DNA of 45,213 nucleotides from a virus, in IMG/VR virus record IMGVR_UViG_3300029319_000026, positions 23,523 through 68,735 of that record; one strand, given 5' to 3'. The notes beneath the pieces were generated by a model that saw nothing but the letters and a program-made list of their open reading frames with translations, searched no databases and was not told where the DNA came from. The position numbers and the translations under genes were made by a program. Position 1 is the first letter of the stretch, and the number at the start of each line of letters is the position of its first letter. Shown here piece by piece: positions 21,937 to 32,818 of the stretch.

Positions 21937-24900
21937 ATGGGAGTAGCAATTCCTCAGGTTATTGCAGAAGATAGAGCATCTGGTGCTCAGATTATTGATG
22001 GTAGTTTGAAGTTTGATAATATTAAATTTCAACATCTTACAAAAACATTTAGTAATGAGGGTAATAGACAATCTTGGACTTGGAGTGGTTGGGTTAAACA
22101 AAGTTCATTAAGTCAATCTCGTCAAGTTTTATTCGGTGCTTCTGGTGGCAATAATGATACAGATTTACTTGAATTTGGATTTGACACCAACGGACTTTAC
22201 GCTACAGTATATACTAGTGCGACTCTTACTACTACACGTTTTAGAGATCCAAGTGCATGGATGCACTACTTTGTAAAGTATGATGGCACAGAAATTAAAT
22301 GGTTTGTTAATGGAGTTGAAGCTCATACTTGGTCGCAGTATAGTGGAAATTTAGGCATTAATGGTATTTGGATACATGATATTGGTAAAGGTACTGCTAC
22401 TGGTGCTAGGCATTTTGATGGGAGTCTATCCAATGTATATTTCATAGATGGTCATGCACTTGGTCCAGAATATTTTGGATTCACTGACCCACTCACAAAT
22501 ACTTGGAGACCTAAAAAACTAGAATTTCCTAAGAGATCTTTCACTAATCCAAGATGGTATTCTTCTGCAACTTTATATAATAGTGTTGCTGATGTAGTTG
22601 CTAACGCTACAGATCGTGGAAATGGTGGTGTAACTGTAACTAATGAGTATTGCTATCTAGTATTCAATGATGGTGGATATGCTCATAATGGTGGTGAGGT
22701 ACAATCACCCGATTATCCAGTATGGTCTGATGTTCCATCTTTTTCTGGAACAACTAGAGTTTTTTACTATGATAGCAATGATGCCGATAATTGGGTTAAC
22801 GCCTCATCATATAGTTCAGCTGCTACTGAATGGAATAAATGGAGATATTCAAATTCAGCTACAAAACCTGATTTTCTAGCATACAGAATATCTCCATATA
22901 TGGGTATTGAAAATGGAAACATGTTGGTATTCTGTGCTAATGCCTCCATTGATAATCCCACACTTGCTGGAACATTAGCATCAATAACTCTTCCAACATT
23001 TGATACAAACTCTTTCCACTTTCAAAATGCTGCAGTAGATACTTGGTATACTGGTGGTAATTCATTCTATCTTCCTTTTGATGGAAACTCACCCGTTGGA
23101 GAAGATAAGTTTAATAACGGAAATGACTGGACACCAGTAAACTTTGGTGGTTCTAATACTATTGAAAAAGCAACAGGGGCACTACCTATTCTTAACACTA
23201 TTAGTGGTGGTAAGATTGCTACTGTTGGAGTAAGAACTGATGCAACTGTTGCTGCTGGTGTAGGAACTTGTGTTCTTGCAGTTCCAATGGCTGGACCAAT
23301 GCCAGGTAATTACACTGATGTAAGCAATCAAATTGATAGTAGGAGTTCAGTAAAAACTGTTACCGCAGACGATAATGCTGATTTCTCAACAGATACTAGT
23401 GTTTTCTACAGTGGTAGTTTTAAATTTGATGGAACAAGTGATAAAGTATCAATAGTTGATCATGATGAATTAGATGGATTTGGAGACTTTACCATTGAAA
23501 TGTGGTGGTATTGTAGCACCCTTAATAGTGGAGAGTATTTGTTAGCTAAAGGTAATTCATATATGCCTTATATGATCTACAATAGTGGATTAGATGTATT
23601 AGAATTTTTTGCTTCATCTGATGGATCTCCTACTACCGGATGGGATATTGCAAATGGTGCTAGTTTTGGTAGTAGCATCCCTATGCTTAATAAGTGGAAT
23701 CATATTGCTGTTACTAGAGAGGGAAGCACTGGTAGGTTATTTTTGAATGGAGTTCAAACTGATACCTTTACTAGTTCATTACCATTAATGACTAGTGGAG
23801 ATAATGTTACTGTATTTGCAGATAGTACTGGAGGTGCTGCACCAATTGGATATGCTCAGGATCTTAGAATTTATAATGGAGTAGCAAAATACACCAGTGA
23901 CTTCATCCCTGCTTCTACTAATCCGGATATTCTCCCAGATACTCCATCAGGTGTAAGTGGTGGTTCTAAACTTGCTAAGATTACTGATGGTGCTGTGAGT
24001 TTTGGTGGAACTACATCACTTGATTATTTGACCATTCCTTGGTCTTCTGATTTTAATTTAGGAACATCTGAATTCACTATTGAATTTTTTGTTAATTTCC
24101 AAGATGATGCAACTACATCAACATTACTATCTTGGGGTACAGACATTGATAATAGATTTGATATAGGATGCCAATCTGCAAATCAACTCCGCTTGCTTGC
24201 TAGATCTAGTGGAAATACCCTTATTTTTGGTAGTACACCAATAGGTCCTAAAAAATGGTATCATGTTGCTGTAGTTGGATATTCTGACATAGGTGGCGGA
24301 TCAACTGCTATTGCTTTATATGTAAATGGAGAAAGAAGATTTATAGCCACTGGTGCATTAGATACATATGCAATGCCAACTGATACTAGTGGTTATGGTA
24401 TAGAAATTGGAAGAAGAAGATATGCATCATCAGTAACTGATTATTTTGGAGGATTTATAAGCAACCTAAGAATTGTAAAAGGATCTGCAATTTATCCATA
24501 TCAAATGAATATAACAGTTCCAACAGAATCACTTACAAATGTAACCAATACAAAACTTCTGTGTTGTCAGTCAGTTGATGAGCAACAGAACAATTTCATT
24601 AGAATGTTTAGATCTGACAATCTCTACACTACAAGAGCAGATATTCTTTCTAATGCAACTGAGATTTTTGGTGGTGAAACTTTAACTGATGAATATTGGT
24701 ATATTGTCCCACATGGAACAGAACCAATTGAAGGAACCAGTGGACCCAATATGGTATTCAGCACTGATGCAGGATGGACTACAAATAGTAGATTTTACTG
24801 GCGTGATGGTTTATCATGGACTCAAACTGCAGGTGGATATGGCAATCAAGATTATTCAACTGCAGGAGGTGCTGGCACTGGATTTAGTTATCAAAATGGT

Positions 24901-28415: not shown

Positions 28416-29173
28416 TGTCAGATTTAAGAGTAAATAGTTTAAGAGGAAGAACTCCAGGATCTGCTCCAAATTTACCCGATGGTGTTGTCGTAACTGGTGT
28501 TGCTACTGCCACTACTTTTGATGGTTCTGGTGCAAATTTAACAAGTCTGCCTGCTGCACAATTAACCGGTGCTTTGCCAGCAATTGATGGATCAAATCTG
28601 ACCGGTATTCAATCTGGTGTATGGACACAAATCGATTCTCAACAGATTTCATCATCAACATCTCTAGTTGATGTTATTTTTGGAGCTAACTCAGGTATTA
28701 CCACTGCATATGCTCAAATTAAAGTGTATTATGATGTATGGCTCAATTCTGCTGATAAACTTTATGTTAGGGGTGCTCACGGTTTCAGTGGCACTTTTGC
28801 TAATGATATAAAAACTACTAACTATTATTGGTCTGGTTTTTGGCATAGGGCAGGAGAAACTAATATGAATTTTCCCACACAAGGAGAAAACGCAGCTAGT
28901 GGATTAATTTCTGCAAATACTAATAAGGAGCATCATAATGGGGAAATGATTATTAGTAATGCAGCTGGAAGACTTCATACAACTACTGGCGTAAATTGGC
29001 CTGCTTTGGTATATAATACTCAAGGATATGTTGGAGGTGATACTGATGCTCACAACTTTACTATTTCAGGACATTTGAAGGGTGGTGATAACAGTCCACT
29101 TCAAGGTATTAGAATTTACAGTGGACAAAATATCATTGCCGGTGAAGTGAGGACATATGGTTTAACCGCATAA
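28415..29173 (+). CDS. Fibre protein with anchor module and jelly-roll-type C-terminus (252 aa)
   Basis: MSDLRVNSLRGRTPGSAPN leads into VVVTGVATATTFDGS, the array's anchor module. The connector LPAIDGSNLTGIQSG follows. The last 180 residues (WTQIDSQQISSSTSLVDVIFG through GIRIYSGQNIIAGEVRTYGL) form a single beta-rich domain. Its final motif, GI(R)-SG-N-I-AG-x-YG(L/I), recurs at the end of many phage fibre tips. By analogy, this end domain is a candidate receptor-binding head. The anchor DNA is identical over 38 nt with 17808-17845. It is coupled to the preceding gene by a one-base overlap. Confidence 0.78.
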   Translation: MSDLRVNSLRGRTPGSAPNLPDGVVVTGVATATTFDGSGANLTSLPAAQLTGALPAIDGSNLTGIQSGVWTQIDSQQISSSTSLVDVIFGANSGITTAYAQIKVYYDVWLNSADKLYVRGAHGFSGTFANDIKTTNYYWSGFWHRAGETNMNFPTQGENAASGLISANTNKEHHNGEMIISNAAGRLHTTTGVNWPALVYNTQGYVGGDTDAHNFTISGHLKGGDNSPLQGIRIYSGQNIIAGEVRTYGLTA

Positions 29174-29180
29174 TATTAAT

Positions 29181-29188
29181 CATAAATA
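29181..29188 (+). promoter_or_regulatory. Late promoter CATAAATA for 29205-31359
   Basis: It lies 7 nt after the previous stop and 16 nt before the ATG. The 5' leader after it (ACTAGAAAGTCATAAG) differs at a single base from the one before 34442. Confidence 0.75.
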
Positions 29189-29204
29189 ACTAGAAAGTCA
29201 TAAG

Positions 29205-30476
29205 ATGTCTAGAGCACGCGACCTATCAAAATTAGGAAATCCTGGTGTATTTTCAGTTAGTGCTGATAATAATGTCGGTGTTAACTCAACTGCACCAGTT
29301 GAAAAACTAAATGTCGTTGGAGTTGTTTCTGCTACGTCATTTTATGGTGATGGTTCTCAACTTGAAGGAGTTGCAAGTGCAGGATTAGGAACTGCTGTTA
29401 TTGATGATTCTCCCTATGGTGGCGAGCAGATTTATTATACTAATAAAGAATTAAGAATTAGTGGCAATTTAACTGTAGATGTACCTGATTCTGCAGAGGT
29501 TGCATATACTCAGTATCAAGAGATTGTAGTTGATTCTGGTGCTGACTTTATTGTTGGTGACGGTGATGACTTTATCCCAGATATTCTTGGGATTGGTACT
29601 GAGGTTCAACAACCTGGATTGCTTTCAGGTGGTGGAGGAAGAGTAAGAGCAGATAATTTTTCAGATAAGTCTGGTACTGGAGCACCTACATTTTCATCTG
29701 GTGTAGTTATTACTGGAGTTGCTACTGCAACAACATTCAGTGGCAATGTAACTGGCAATGTAACTGGCAATGTAACTGGCAATGCAACAGGTCTTACAGG
29801 AACACCTGATATTACTGTAGGTGATATTACTGCCAACAATATTTCTATTGGTGGAACATTAACTTATGAAGATGTCACTAATGTTGATTCTGTAGGTCTT
29901 ATTACTGCAAGATCTGGTATTGAAGTTGCTGGTATTATTACTGCAAAAGCAGGAGCAGCACTCACTTATTATGGTGATGGTTCAAATCTAACTGGTATAG
30001 CATCAACTGATAATATAAATGCAGGAAGTTTAACTGTTGCTGGTATTTCAACTTTCAATGGTGATGCAGAATTTAAAAAATTACTTCAAGAACCTTGTAA
30101 TATAGTTGCTAGTAATCTTACAACTTCTCCAAATATTGATTTGGAAAATGGAATGTTCTATTACTTCAGCACCAACGAAACTGGTGTTGGAAAAGCAAAT
30201 ATTAGATATAGTTCTACAGAAGCATTGATGTCTAAGATGGAAATTGGTGATACTGTATGTGTTACTATAATGACAAGACCAAATAATGCAGGATATAATC
30301 AAGGTTTGGATATTGATGGTCAAAATGTAAATGTATCTTGGTTGGGTGGTGCTCAACCAACATCAGCAAATAGTGCTGGATGGGATTTATATACTTACCA
30401 AATAATCAAACATTCTGCTACAGGAACTTACGCAAACGACACTCATGTTCTAGCTCATATCACAAACTATCAGTGA
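29205..30476 (+). CDS. Tail-fibre protein with internal second anchor module (423 aa)
   Basis: Residues 1-60 are a fibre start (MSRARDLSKLGNPGVFSV, VGVNSTAPVEKLNVVGVVSATSFYGDGSQL). At about 146-185 a second start-like module appears (GRVRADNFSDKSGTGAPTFS, VVITGVATATTF) that elsewhere in the array is N-terminal. This suggests fusion of two fibre genes. Four tandem GN(V/A)TG units follow, then TLTYEDVTNVDSVGLITA. The last 130 residues (NIDLENGMFYYFSTNETG, IDGQNVNVSWLGGAQPTSANSAGWDLYTYQIIK) are, from memory, a very common C-terminal domain of cyanophage fibre proteins. It precedes a Gly-rich gene through a 25-nt junction identical to that at 12307-12331. Confidence 0.82.
   Translation: MSRARDLSKLGNPGVFSVSADNNVGVNSTAPVEKLNVVGVVSATSFYGDGSQLEGVASAGLGTAVIDDSPYGGEQIYYTNKELRISGNLTVDVPDSAEVAYTQYQEIVVDSGADFIVGDGDDFIPDILGIGTEVQQPGLLSGGGGRVRADNFSDKSGTGAPTFSSGVVITGVATATTFSGNVTGNVTGNVTGNATGLTGTPDITVGDITANNISIGGTLTYEDVTNVDSVGLITARSGIEVAGIITAKAGAALTYYGDGSNLTGIASTDNINAGSLTVAGISTFNGDAEFKKLLQEPCNIVASNLTTSPNIDLENGMFYYFSTNETGVGKANIRYSSTEALMSKMEIGDTVCVTIMTRPNNAGYNQGLDIDGQNVNVSWLGGAQPTSANSAGWDLYTYQIIKHSATGTYANDTHVLAHITNYQ
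29742..29789 (+). repeat. Four tandem 12-nt units encoding GNVT
   Basis: Three exact copies of GGCAATGTAACT and a fourth with two changes lie in frame inside the 423-aa fibre gene. Slippage here would lengthen or shorten the fibre by four residues per unit. Confidence 0.9.
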
Positions 30477-30486
30477 GGGTAGATAA

Positions 30487-31359
30487 ATGATGAATAACTG
30501 GCATAGAAAAGAAAAACCACATCTGAGTTCAATTGGATTAGGTGGGGGTATTGGAAGAAACTTAATTCGCAAGGGTTTTGAACCAGGTGAAGTAGAATTT
30601 ACAACTGCAGGATCATATAACTGGACAGCTCCTGTTGATGCAGCACATTTTGGTGTCTGTGTTGTTTGTGTTGGTGCCGGTGGTAATGGAGAATCTTCAC
30701 TTGCTAGAGGATTTGCTGGTGCAGGCGGTGGACTCGGATGGAAAAATAATATTCCTGTAGTAGCAGGACAATCTTATACAGTTGTTGTTGGTGGTGCAGG
30801 TGGTGCTAATGGAGACCCTTCATATTTCATAAATTCATCAACTGTAAGAGGTGGAGGTGGAACCGGTAATAGTGGAAGTAATGGTGGAGGAGATTATACT
30901 GGAGATGGTGGTGGAAATGGTGGTGCTGGTGGATCAGGTGGAAGTTTATCTTCGGGTGGTGATGGTGCTGGTGGAGGTGGTGCTGGTGGATATACTGGTA
31001 ATGGTGGAAATGGTGCTTCTTTCTCAGGTGGAACTGGATCGTCAGGTGCTGGCGGAGGAGGAGGTGGTGGTGGATGCCAAGCTATAAACAGCTCTGGATA
31101 CACATATGGTGGTAATGGTGGTGGTGTAGGTATCTACGGTGAAGGTTCAAGTGGTGCAGGTGGGCCACAGTCTTCTGATACCAGTACAAATCCTGGTGAT
31201 GCTGGATCTGGTGGATCTGGTACACTTTATGGTGGTGGAGGAGGAGGCAGCAATGGTTCAAGAGTTGGTGGACCAGGTGCTGTAAGAATTATTTGGGGCA
31301 CCGGAAGAGGTTTCCCAAGCACTTTAACTGGAGATAATGCAACTCCGGCTCCAGCATAA
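30487..31359 (+). CDS. Gly-rich adhesin candidate (290 aa)
   Basis: A basic N-terminus (MMNNWHRKEKPHLSSIGLGGGIGRNLIRKG) leads to EFTTAGSYNWTAPVDAAHFGVCVVCVGAGG, the opening strands of a Gly-rich fibre domain. About 170 residues follow, rich in GG(N/S/A)GG and with many GGGG runs, closed by the strand PGAVRIIWG. This matches the single-domain Gly-rich proteins at 33517, 42124 and 43196. The ATG at 30487 (rather than 30490) is chosen because the junction is identical to that of the LamG gene start at 12329. It ends 1 nt before a sigma-70-type promoter that begins a separate unit. Confidence 0.8.
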   Translation: MMNNWHRKEKPHLSSIGLGGGIGRNLIRKGFEPGEVEFTTAGSYNWTAPVDAAHFGVCVVCVGAGGNGESSLARGFAGAGGGLGWKNNIPVVAGQSYTVVVGGAGGANGDPSYFINSSTVRGGGGTGNSGSNGGGDYTGDGGGNGGAGGSGGSLSSGGDGAGGGGAGGYTGNGGNGASFSGGTGSSGAGGGGGGGGCQAINSSGYTYGGNGGGVGIYGEGSSGAGGPQSSDTSTNPGDAGSGGSGTLYGGGGGGSNGSRVGGPGAVRIIWGTGRGFPSTLTGDNATPAPA

Positions 31360-31360
31360 A

Positions 31361-31389
31361 TTGACATTTTCAAGCAACTCATATATAAT
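31361..31389 (+). promoter_or_regulatory. Sigma-70-type promoter TTGACA-17-TATAAT for the oxygenase pair
   Basis: TTGACA at 31361-31366 and TATAAT at 31384-31389 with a 17-nt spacer form a perfect match. It starts one base after the stop of the late Gly-rich gene. No NATAAATA octamer is present before 31413. The predicted start near 31396 leaves a leader of about 17 nt. Confidence 0.87.
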
Positions 31390-31412
31390 AGACCTGAATA
31401 CATTAAACTTGA

Positions 31413-32033
31413 ATGGCATATCAATCAATTTGGTATTTTACTAATATCCCTGAGGATGTTGTTAAACTTATTGAGAAGGATCTGACTGAAACTTTTGATC
31501 CTCAAATGGCAGACTCCAAATTGTATGGAGATGCTCTCAATAAAGAGAAAAGGAACTCACAAAATGCATGGATTCCTACTCAACACTGGGTTGGTGGTTT
31601 CTTGTGGCACTATATTGAACGAGCAAACCGTGAGAACTTCTTGTATGACCTGCGGTGTATTGATGGAGAATCAATGCAATATACCAGGTATCAAGAAGGT
31701 CAGTTCTATGGATGGCACAATGATGCAGGACTTGCTACACAGTACAAACCTGTAGCAGTTGGTAATCGAGTCGAAGGTTTGGGTCAAGACTTTGTGAATG
31801 AAAACATTGAGCAGGTTCGTAAGTTGTCCTTTGTGATGCAACTTTCAGACCCTGATGATTATGAAGGTGGTAACTTGCAGTTGTTGGACGAAGCAGGTAA
31901 GAGTTATATTGCACCTCGTCAACGTGGAACAGTTATCTTGTTTGACTCCCGCACACAACACCGAGTTCTGAAAGTTACAAAAGGAACTCGTAAGTCTATC
32001 GTTGGATGGACTGTTGGACCCCGTTGGAAGTGA
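31413..32033 (+). CDS. 2-oxoglutarate/Fe(II)-dependent oxygenase, prolyl-4-hydroxylase-like (206 aa)
   Basis: The fold signature is clear. The metal triad is H102-x-D104 (WHNDAG) and H183 (RTQHRVLKV), with R193 ten residues later (GTRKSIVGW) as the expected 2-oxoglutarate anchor. YEGGNLQL (about 150-157) and GTVILFDS are the usual core strands. The length fits small bacterial and phage P4H-type enzymes. Such enzymes couple decarboxylation of 2-oxoglutarate to hydroxylation of a protein, peptide or other substrate; the substrate here is unknown. It forms a two-gene unit with the next oxygenase under a sigma-70-type promoter, so it is likely expressed before the surrounding fibre genes. Hydroxylation of host proteins or of phage fibres are both possible. 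Confidence 0.9.
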   Translation: MAYQSIWYFTNIPEDVVKLIEKDLTETFDPQMADSKLYGDALNKEKRNSQNAWIPTQHWVGGFLWHYIERANRENFLYDLRCIDGESMQYTRYQEGQFYGWHNDAGLATQYKPVAVGNRVEGLGQDFVNENIEQVRKLSFVMQLSDPDDYEGGNLQLLDEAGKSYIAPRQRGTVILFDSRTQHRVLKVTKGTRKSIVGWTVGPRWK

Positions 32034-32041
32034 GGTAGAAT

Positions 32042-32776
32042 ATGGCAGAAGGAATGACACAAGAGCAAGTTGCTTTTCAAGAAAGAGTAAACTCTGGAAC
32101 AGCATGGACTCGTAATGAAAGTTTTGAGAAGAATGGATATCTAGTAATTAAAGATCTTTGGGATCCTAAAGAACTTTATTCAGAAGTTCCAGAACAAAAA
32201 GGTCAATATAACTATTGGGATAAGAACCCAGAACATTTCAATCATGTTCCTGTAGAGAATCAAGTTGAAGGATCTACTTCACGTTATTGGCACCCACAAT
32301 ATCGTGAGATTCACTCTGGTATTCGTATGAAACTGGAGAAACATCTTGGTCGTAAGTTGTATAATACTTACTACTATGATCGGTTTTATAACCCAGGACA
32401 AGCACTGACAATACATGCTGATCGTGATGCATGTGAGATTTCAGTAACAGTTCATATCAGTACTAATCTTGAAGGAGATGCTGCTGATTGGCCTATCTGG
32501 ATTAAAACACCAGATACATATGCTGATAAAACTAAAATGGTTATCACTGAAACTGGAGAGAACCGATCTGTAGTTCTCCAAGCAGGTGATGGTATGGTTT
32601 ACAAAGGTTGTGAACGTCCACACTGGAGAGATCCAATGCCTACTCAATATGAGAAGAAAGGTTTGTTTGGAAGAAAGCAAGTTGAGAAAGAAGGATTGTA
32701 TTATCATCAAATCTTCTTCCATTATGTTTTACAGGATGGACAAAGAGCACAATGTGCATGGGATAGTGCAAAATAA
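32042..32776 (+). CDS. Second 2OG/Fe(II) oxygenase-like protein (244 aa)
   Basis: Residues about 27-45 (ESFEKNGYLVIKDLWDP) resemble the start of phytanoyl-CoA/2OG oxygenase-like folds. H125-x-D127 (TIHADRDACEISVTVHIS) is the first metal pair. The most likely distal ligand is H194 in GDGMVYKGCERPHWRDP, with R196 close by. A second His-rich strand (YYHQIFFHYVLQDG, 220-233) follows. It is clearly different from the neighbour at 31413 and is not a recent duplicate. GAGGT lies 6 nt before the ATG and the gap from the previous stop is 8 nt, so the two are co-translated. Substrate unknown; a protein- or small-molecule-hydroxylating role is inferred only from the fold. Confidence 0.8.
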   Translation: MAEGMTQEQVAFQERVNSGTAWTRNESFEKNGYLVIKDLWDPKELYSEVPEQKGQYNYWDKNPEHFNHVPVENQVEGSTSRYWHPQYREIHSGIRMKLEKHLGRKLYNTYYYDRFYNPGQALTIHADRDACEISVTVHISTNLEGDAADWPIWIKTPDTYADKTKMVITETGENRSVVLQAGDGMVYKGCERPHWRDPMPTQYEKKGLFGRKQVEKEGLYYHQIFFHYVLQDGQRAQCAWDSAK

Positions 32777-32781
32777 TTTAC

Positions 32782-32808
32782 AGACCACCAATATGGTGGT
32801 CTTTTTTT
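32782..32808 (+). terminator. Strong intrinsic terminator after the oxygenase pair
   Basis: A perfect 9-bp stem AGACCACCA/TGGTGGTCT with a 3-nt loop is followed by seven T. It closes the sigma-70-driven unit directly before a late promoter. Confidence 0.95.
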
Positions 32809-32810
32809 AT

Positions 32811-32818
32811 GATAAATA
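32811..32818 (+). promoter_or_regulatory. Late promoter GATAAATA for 32838-34419
   Basis: It lies 2 nt after the terminator T-run and 19 nt before the ATG, restarting the late fibre array. Confidence 0.78.

Follow-up and report, generated by a model that had tools for sequence, protein, structure and literature searches.

Two predicted 2OG/Fe(II) oxygenase genes behind a conserved host-type promoter in the tail-fibre region of a T4-like cyanophage

The stretch of DNA analysed here (the window; 45,213 nucleotides, positions 23,523 to 68,735 of the 68.7-kb virus record IMGVR_UViG_3300029319_000026) is a fragment of a T4-like cyanophage (Kyanoviridae). Among its tail-fibre genes lie two co-oriented genes, OX1 and OX2, separated by 8 nt. 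For this region, the closest named relatives are S-SM2 and Bellamy, two Synechococcus phages with 80% DNA identity. The pair and the elements associated with it are as follows.

29181..29188, + strand: CATAAATA, late promoter serving fibre genes 29205 and 30487, from which late read-through is likely to start
31361..31389, + strand: host-type sigma-70 promoter TTGACA-17-TATAAT, conserved in relatives (-35 box TTGACA at 31361-31366, 17-nt spacer, -10 box TATAAT at 31384-31389)
31390..31412, + strand: 5' leader with a conserved TGAATACATTAT-like element (window form CTGAATACATTAAACTTGA), ending at the start codon
31413..32033, + strand: OX1, 206 aa, predicted 2OG-Fe(II) oxygenase of the PiuC / prolyl-4-hydroxylase fold; T4-GC 412, phrog_61
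32042..32776, + strand: OX2, 244 aa, second protein with a predicted 2OG-Fe(II) oxygenase fold; T4-GC 615, phrog_2954, public label 'ferrochelatase'
32782..32808, + strand: intrinsic terminator with a 9-bp stem, a 3-nt loop and seven T
32811..32818, + strand: GATAAATA, late promoter of fibre gene 32838, outside the unit and forming its right border

A glycine-rich gene (30487-31359) lies directly upstream, and its stop codon ends 1 nt before the -35 box. The terminator reads AGACCACCA-ATA-TGGTGGTCT, forming nine pairs followed by the T run. The initial annotation had described a perfect promoter, two 2OG/Fe(II) oxygenase genes and a 9-bp terminator with seven T at this place, and every coordinate that was checked proved correct. 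The gene pair itself is already known as T4-GC 412 and 615 (PMC3037559), and cyanophages are reported to carry many 2OG oxygenases (PMC9602691).

OX1 is a predicted 2OG/Fe(II) oxygenase with the fold and catalytic residues of PiuC and the prolyl-4-hydroxylases. It matches the Pfam family 2OG-FeII_Oxy_3 (PF13640; 7.3e-16, 59.4 bits against a cut-off of 27), and the residues of the putative HxD...H iron triad (H102, D104 and H183), along with the putative 2OG-binding R193, are invariant in 31 sequences. The structures of OX1 and OX2 were modelled from alignments of the window protein with relatives translated directly from the fetched loci. The AlphaFold2 model of OX1 (pLDDT 77, pTM 0.77) adopts a double-stranded beta-helix fold with matches to P4H, PiuC and PHD2. 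Its best PDB fold matches are the Pseudomonas putida prolyl-4-hydroxylase and PiuC, and PiuC-type chains are also found by profile search.

OX2 carries a different label in public resources. It matches the phrog_2954 profile at 5e-59, and the label 'ferrochelatase' is attached to the gene and its relatives both in PHROGs and in GenBank. According to this annotation and to two papers, in which the co-occurrence of 'ferrochelatase' and 2OG oxygenases is discussed (PMC9599517, in pelagiphages; PMC11561400), the pair would consist of a hydroxylase and a ferrochelatase partner acting in iron or haem metabolism. The protein evidence makes this reading very improbable. No ferrochelatase Pfam match was obtained for 32 OX2 members at E values up to 1, but nine of the 32 weakly match 2OG-FeII_Oxy_2 (best 7e-4); the window protein gave no Pfam match at 0.01 and no NCBIfam match. 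H125, D127 and H194, the putative HxD...H iron triad, are invariant in the 32 sequences, and the AlphaFold2 model (pLDDT 86.5, pTM 0.85) adopts a double-stranded beta-helix fold. A fold search returned 470 PDB matches at E<=0.001; the 50 matches listed contain no ferrochelatase and consist almost entirely of 2OG-type oxygenases. OX2 as a ferrochelatase was rejected on these grounds, and the label of phrog_2954 / T4-GC 615 is not supported by the profile comparisons and the model. The Pfam match of OX1 and the structural model of OX2 agree with the initial assignment of both proteins as 2OG/Fe(II) oxygenases. OX2 is thus best described as a predicted 2OG/Fe(II) oxygenase of the double-stranded beta-helix type whose activity is uncertain, because a clear 2OG-binding Arg/Lys is lacking, the fold matches are remote (TM 0.3-0.6, 10-15% identity) and a profile comparison found no homology to OX1, a weak result given that both alignments are shallow. 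No Arg/Lys is conserved at the usual spacing of about 10 residues past the distal His; the invariant R196 and R128 are candidates. Taken from the models and the conserved residues, both proteins would be active enzymes. One pattern-based, non-exhaustive scan of a genome collection yielded no cyanobacterial homologue of OX2. The closest match of that scan, at 69% identity, is encoded on a contig of 5.8 kb from a genome bin of Anaerolineales; this contig is probably phage DNA binned with the bacterium. If phrog_2954 is relabelled, the reported co-occurrence of an oxygenase with a ferrochelatase would be one of two oxygenases, and the oxygenase fold of this family bears on ecological interpretations already in print for phage 'ferrochelatases' (PMC9599517, PMC11561400).

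The promoter in front of the pair was compared with chance expectation and with relatives. Perfect TTGACA-17-TATAAT sites occur three times on the two strands of the window (at 50, 1492 and 31361), against about 0.03 expected for perfect 17-spaced sites on both strands under a first-order random model of the window, and the site at 31361 is the sole 12/12 match within 26-38 kb. Among representatives sharing less than 85% identity, 21 of 28 score at least 10/12; the same scoring gave this result for 1.8% of random positions and for 3.2% of upstream sequences after shuffling. A chance origin of the 31361 promoter was rejected on the basis of these two comparisons. The perfect site at 1492 is probably coincidental, judging from its context. 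It overlaps the end of a small ORF and is followed, within 1480-1600, by a terminator, GATAAATA and a giant fibre gene. A small-RNA unit made of this promoter and terminator was considered and dropped because of this overlap with a coding end and because the terminator and late motif, but not the TATAAT, are retained in S-SM2 and Bellamy.

OX2 was located at 80 loci in an IMG/VR scan, almost always preceded by OX1, and 68 distinct loci were left after removal of near-duplicates. The -10 box matches at least 5/6 positions in 66 of the 68, a count somewhat favoured by construction, as the loci were aligned by their best -10. Within these 66 loci, the -35 box matches at least 5/6 in 46 and is poor in about 20, and the complete promoter is 12/12 in 29. 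Mean conservation amounts to 0.06 bits per column upstream of the -35 box, 0.92 within it, 1.3 around the -10 box and 0.53 in the leader; conservation thus has a sharp left edge at the -35 box. More distant pairs vary: the promoter scores 11/12 in S-RIM50 and ACG-2014g and 9/12 in ACG-2014b, and no consensus promoter was found before the pair of the distant relatives S-SSM5, S-CAM8 and S-MS29. The genome of S-SM2 contains eight perfect sites in 190 kb, one of them before the pair; the five others whose annotation was read lie in small-gene, tRNA or hli blocks.

The conserved sequence extends into the leader, with a relative entropy of about 0.5-1.2 bits per column at +11 to +22. The TGAATACATTAT-like pattern is matched in 38 of 68 loci, the consensus across loci is CTGAATACATTAT, and 12 of the 68 contain the perfect dyad TGAATA-n3-TATTCA. 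In the S-SM2 and Bellamy genomes, the leader motif stands behind a promoter only at the oxygenase unit. In the window the conserved element occupies 31396-31408, just past the -10 box; an initial transcribed sequence, an operator or a translational element are candidates for its nature. In the literature searched, which included few subscription papers, neither the conserved promoter with its leader nor a relabelling of OX2 was found to be described. The main text of the P-HM2 transcriptome paper does not mention 2OG genes.

The sigma-70-type sites of cyanomyoviruses are presumed to be early promoters, and their late promoter is NATAAATA (PMC2984593; see also PMC3037559). The window contains 17 matches to NATAAATA, all on the + strand; as 16 are expected from shuffles, the count is not above chance, and the late-promoter signal rests on strand and position. 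The motif stands 22-39 nt upstream of 15 ORF starts, including 29205 and 32838, and at the 15 intergenic sites it is often followed, ahead of the start codon, by a NATAAATAACTAAAAA-like extension. No late motif precedes 31413 in the window, and one lies within 120 nt of the pair in only four of 68 loci. The pair's own host-type promoter, of a class unlike that of its neighbours, was proposed in the initial annotation and is borne out by the relatives. Since this promoter is conserved with a sharp left boundary, transcription of the pair independently of the late fibre genes would be the best reading.

The borders of the unit are less clear-cut. The flanking fibre genes had each been placed under a late promoter, which holds for 32838 with its own motif but not for 30487, which has none and would be co-transcribed with 29205. 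The unit is self-contained at its 3' end, where the terminator lies, but not at its 5' end, where no terminator parts it from the upstream fibre genes. The + strand from 28673 to 32782 holds no terminator-like site, so the late promoter at 29181 is expected to give read-through into the pair. The terminator itself is not a conserved feature of the family, being present after the pair in about a fifth of relatives; in many others a further gene follows directly, often a third 2OG oxygenase (PF13759).

The arrangement can be explained by a module of two predicted 2OG/Fe(II) oxygenases under its own sigma-70 promoter that is conserved within a hypervariable tail-fibre region and transcribed early, and we consider this explanation likely. 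On entry of the phage, the unmodified host RNA polymerase would transcribe the pair at once, while the neighbouring fibre genes would stay silent until the late sigma factor of the phage acts at NATAAATA. In the window phage, the terminator would end the transcript just ahead of the next late promoter, and late read-through from the upstream fibre genes would probably add to expression of the pair. The early timing is probable, judging from the class of promoter. OX1 and OX2 would then have a target that is available early; a host protein or surface component is the simplest candidate. That they hydroxylate such a target during takeover, rather than fibres, is our guess.

Two other accounts give more weight to the late promoters. 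One supposes that the sigma-70-like site is not the driver, that the pair is expressed late from the upstream fibre promoters and that the conserved stretch serves, for instance, as a translational leader. It agrees with the missing terminator between the upstream late promoter and the pair and with the lack of a good -35 box in some relatives. A leader alone does not explain why the hexamers and their spacing are kept beside unrelated upstream genes (42 sequence clusters among 66 loci) or why the promoter is 12/12 in 29 of the 66, which renders this account very unlikely. The other account is that the oxygenases hydroxylate tail-fibre proteins, as prolyl hydroxylases do with collagen, so that read-through expression together with the fibres would matter. 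The pair stands in a fibre array in the window, in Bellamy, in S-SM2 and at three further loci (L112-L114), OX1 is similar to prolyl-4-hydroxylases, among them the collagen hydroxylase of the virus PBCV-1, and late read-through into the pair is possible. The fibre ORFs of the window, however, have no collagen-like repeats; the longest Gly-X-Y run is 21 aa, glycine-rich rather than proline-rich, and collagen-like fibre substrates were rejected for lack of such repeats. The absence of a late motif at the pair in 64 of 68 loci also speaks against fibre substrates. Moreover, in S-SSM5, S-CAM8, ACG-2014b/g, S-RIM50 and S-MS29, the pair does not stand among fibres but heads a small-gene block divergent from minus-strand genes. 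Fibre modification is consequently an unlikely function. If the early-transcribed module is the right explanation, its conserved early-type promoter points to the host rather than the virion as the site of action and narrows the search for substrates of 2OG oxygenases, which are among the most widespread unexplained accessory genes in marine phages.

The origin of the module is a separate question. Its neighbours vary: upstream neighbours fall into 42 sequence clusters among the 66 loci and downstream neighbours into 29, and they comprise fibre and glycine-rich proteins, other 2OG oxygenases (PF13640, PF13759), tryptophan halogenase and endonucleases. In phage Sf-CH11 (3139-7002), three annotated 2OG oxygenases, a tryptophan 7-halogenase and an OX2 homologue form one run. 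The initial annotation had interpreted the unit as a moron-type insertion, for which relatives lacking it should show the flanking genes joined. One distant case of this kind was found. In locus L112, homologues of 29205 and of the glycine-rich gene are followed by OX1-OX2 and then a fibre gene. L111 has no oxygenases: behind a 29205 homologue (49% over its length) come a glycine-rich gene whose N-terminus is similar, a short ORF (about 31 codons), then a terminator, TATAAATA and a fibre gene. The two loci are distant, and their glycine-rich genes align by eye only, at the N-terminus. At 8455-8480 of L111, TTAGACACTCCACAAACCGTCC resembles the -35 regions of the cassettes and may be a relic or a chance likeness. 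No close collinear pair of genomes with and without the unit was found, and fibre gene 32838, used as a probe for an empty site, had no relatives. GC3 is 0.35 in OX1 and 0.22 in OX2, against 0.14-0.19 in the adjacent fibre genes and 0.26 in gene 35233. The window unit has its own promoter and terminator, as a moron would, but the module appears old and widespread and the terminator occurs in a minority of relatives. From its distribution, the pair would be an old, widespread module rather than clearly a recent moron, and a stable module in a shuffling fibre region would fit as well as a moron insertion.

Two more specific histories can be formulated. In one, which is compatible with the early-transcribed module and to which we give slightly less than an even chance, the pair has long been established at the margin of the structural region, and it is the surrounding fibre genes that have been reshuffled. 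In many reference phages the record position of the pair is indeed about 32-48 kb, close to where the structural region ends; gene 2 is found in 139 phage records, with divergent copies, and the fibre neighbours in the window share little with relatives. Against a fixed position stand the homologous upstream genes with the pair in L112 and without it in L111, and the gene 2 relatives of S-RSM4, S-T4 and Syn30, which lie elsewhere on the record and on the other strand. The second history regards the promoter, leader and pair as a portable cassette for early expression whose left border is fixed at the -35 box, and the leader as a dedicated regulatory element. It is suggested by the joining of the unit to unrelated upstream genes and by the stop codon of the upstream ORF, which is the TGA within the -35 box in 20 of 66 loci; that fraction is, in our interpretation, near the one in three expected for random-frame junctions just upstream of the -35 box. 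We put this forward tentatively, as rather doubtful; if true, it would mean that phages run host-directed hydroxylases from inside the late structural region.

Several known systems resemble the unit in part. OX1 belongs to PHROG 61, whose prolyl-hydroxylase-like fold in marine phages has been noted in passages of PMC12774648 that treat neither the promoter nor the gene pair; a text search of that paper for ferrochelatase gave no mention. With the PiuC / PKHD-type hydroxylases and the P. putida prolyl-4-hydroxylase (PDB 9ghl, 4j25, 4iw3), OX1 shares the predicted fold (TM ~0.55-0.7) and the HxD...H...R residues, but it differs in sequence (~19% identity) and falls below the NCBIfam cut-offs for the group (56 vs 143 bits). 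The two genes (T4-GC 412 + T4-GC 615) also occur in this order in S-SM2 (SSM2_035/036) and Bellamy (genes 46/47), with the same perfect promoter 52 nt before the start codon and a similar leader. Unlike in the window, a third gene, annotated in RefSeq as a 2OG-Fe(II) oxygenase, starts within the end of gene 2 in both phages, and no terminator is present there. Like the morons of lambdoid phages, the window unit brings a promoter and a terminator of its own into a set of genes expressed in a different class, but it differs in that it belongs to a T4-like phage, its terminator is not conserved and the module appears to be old and widespread.
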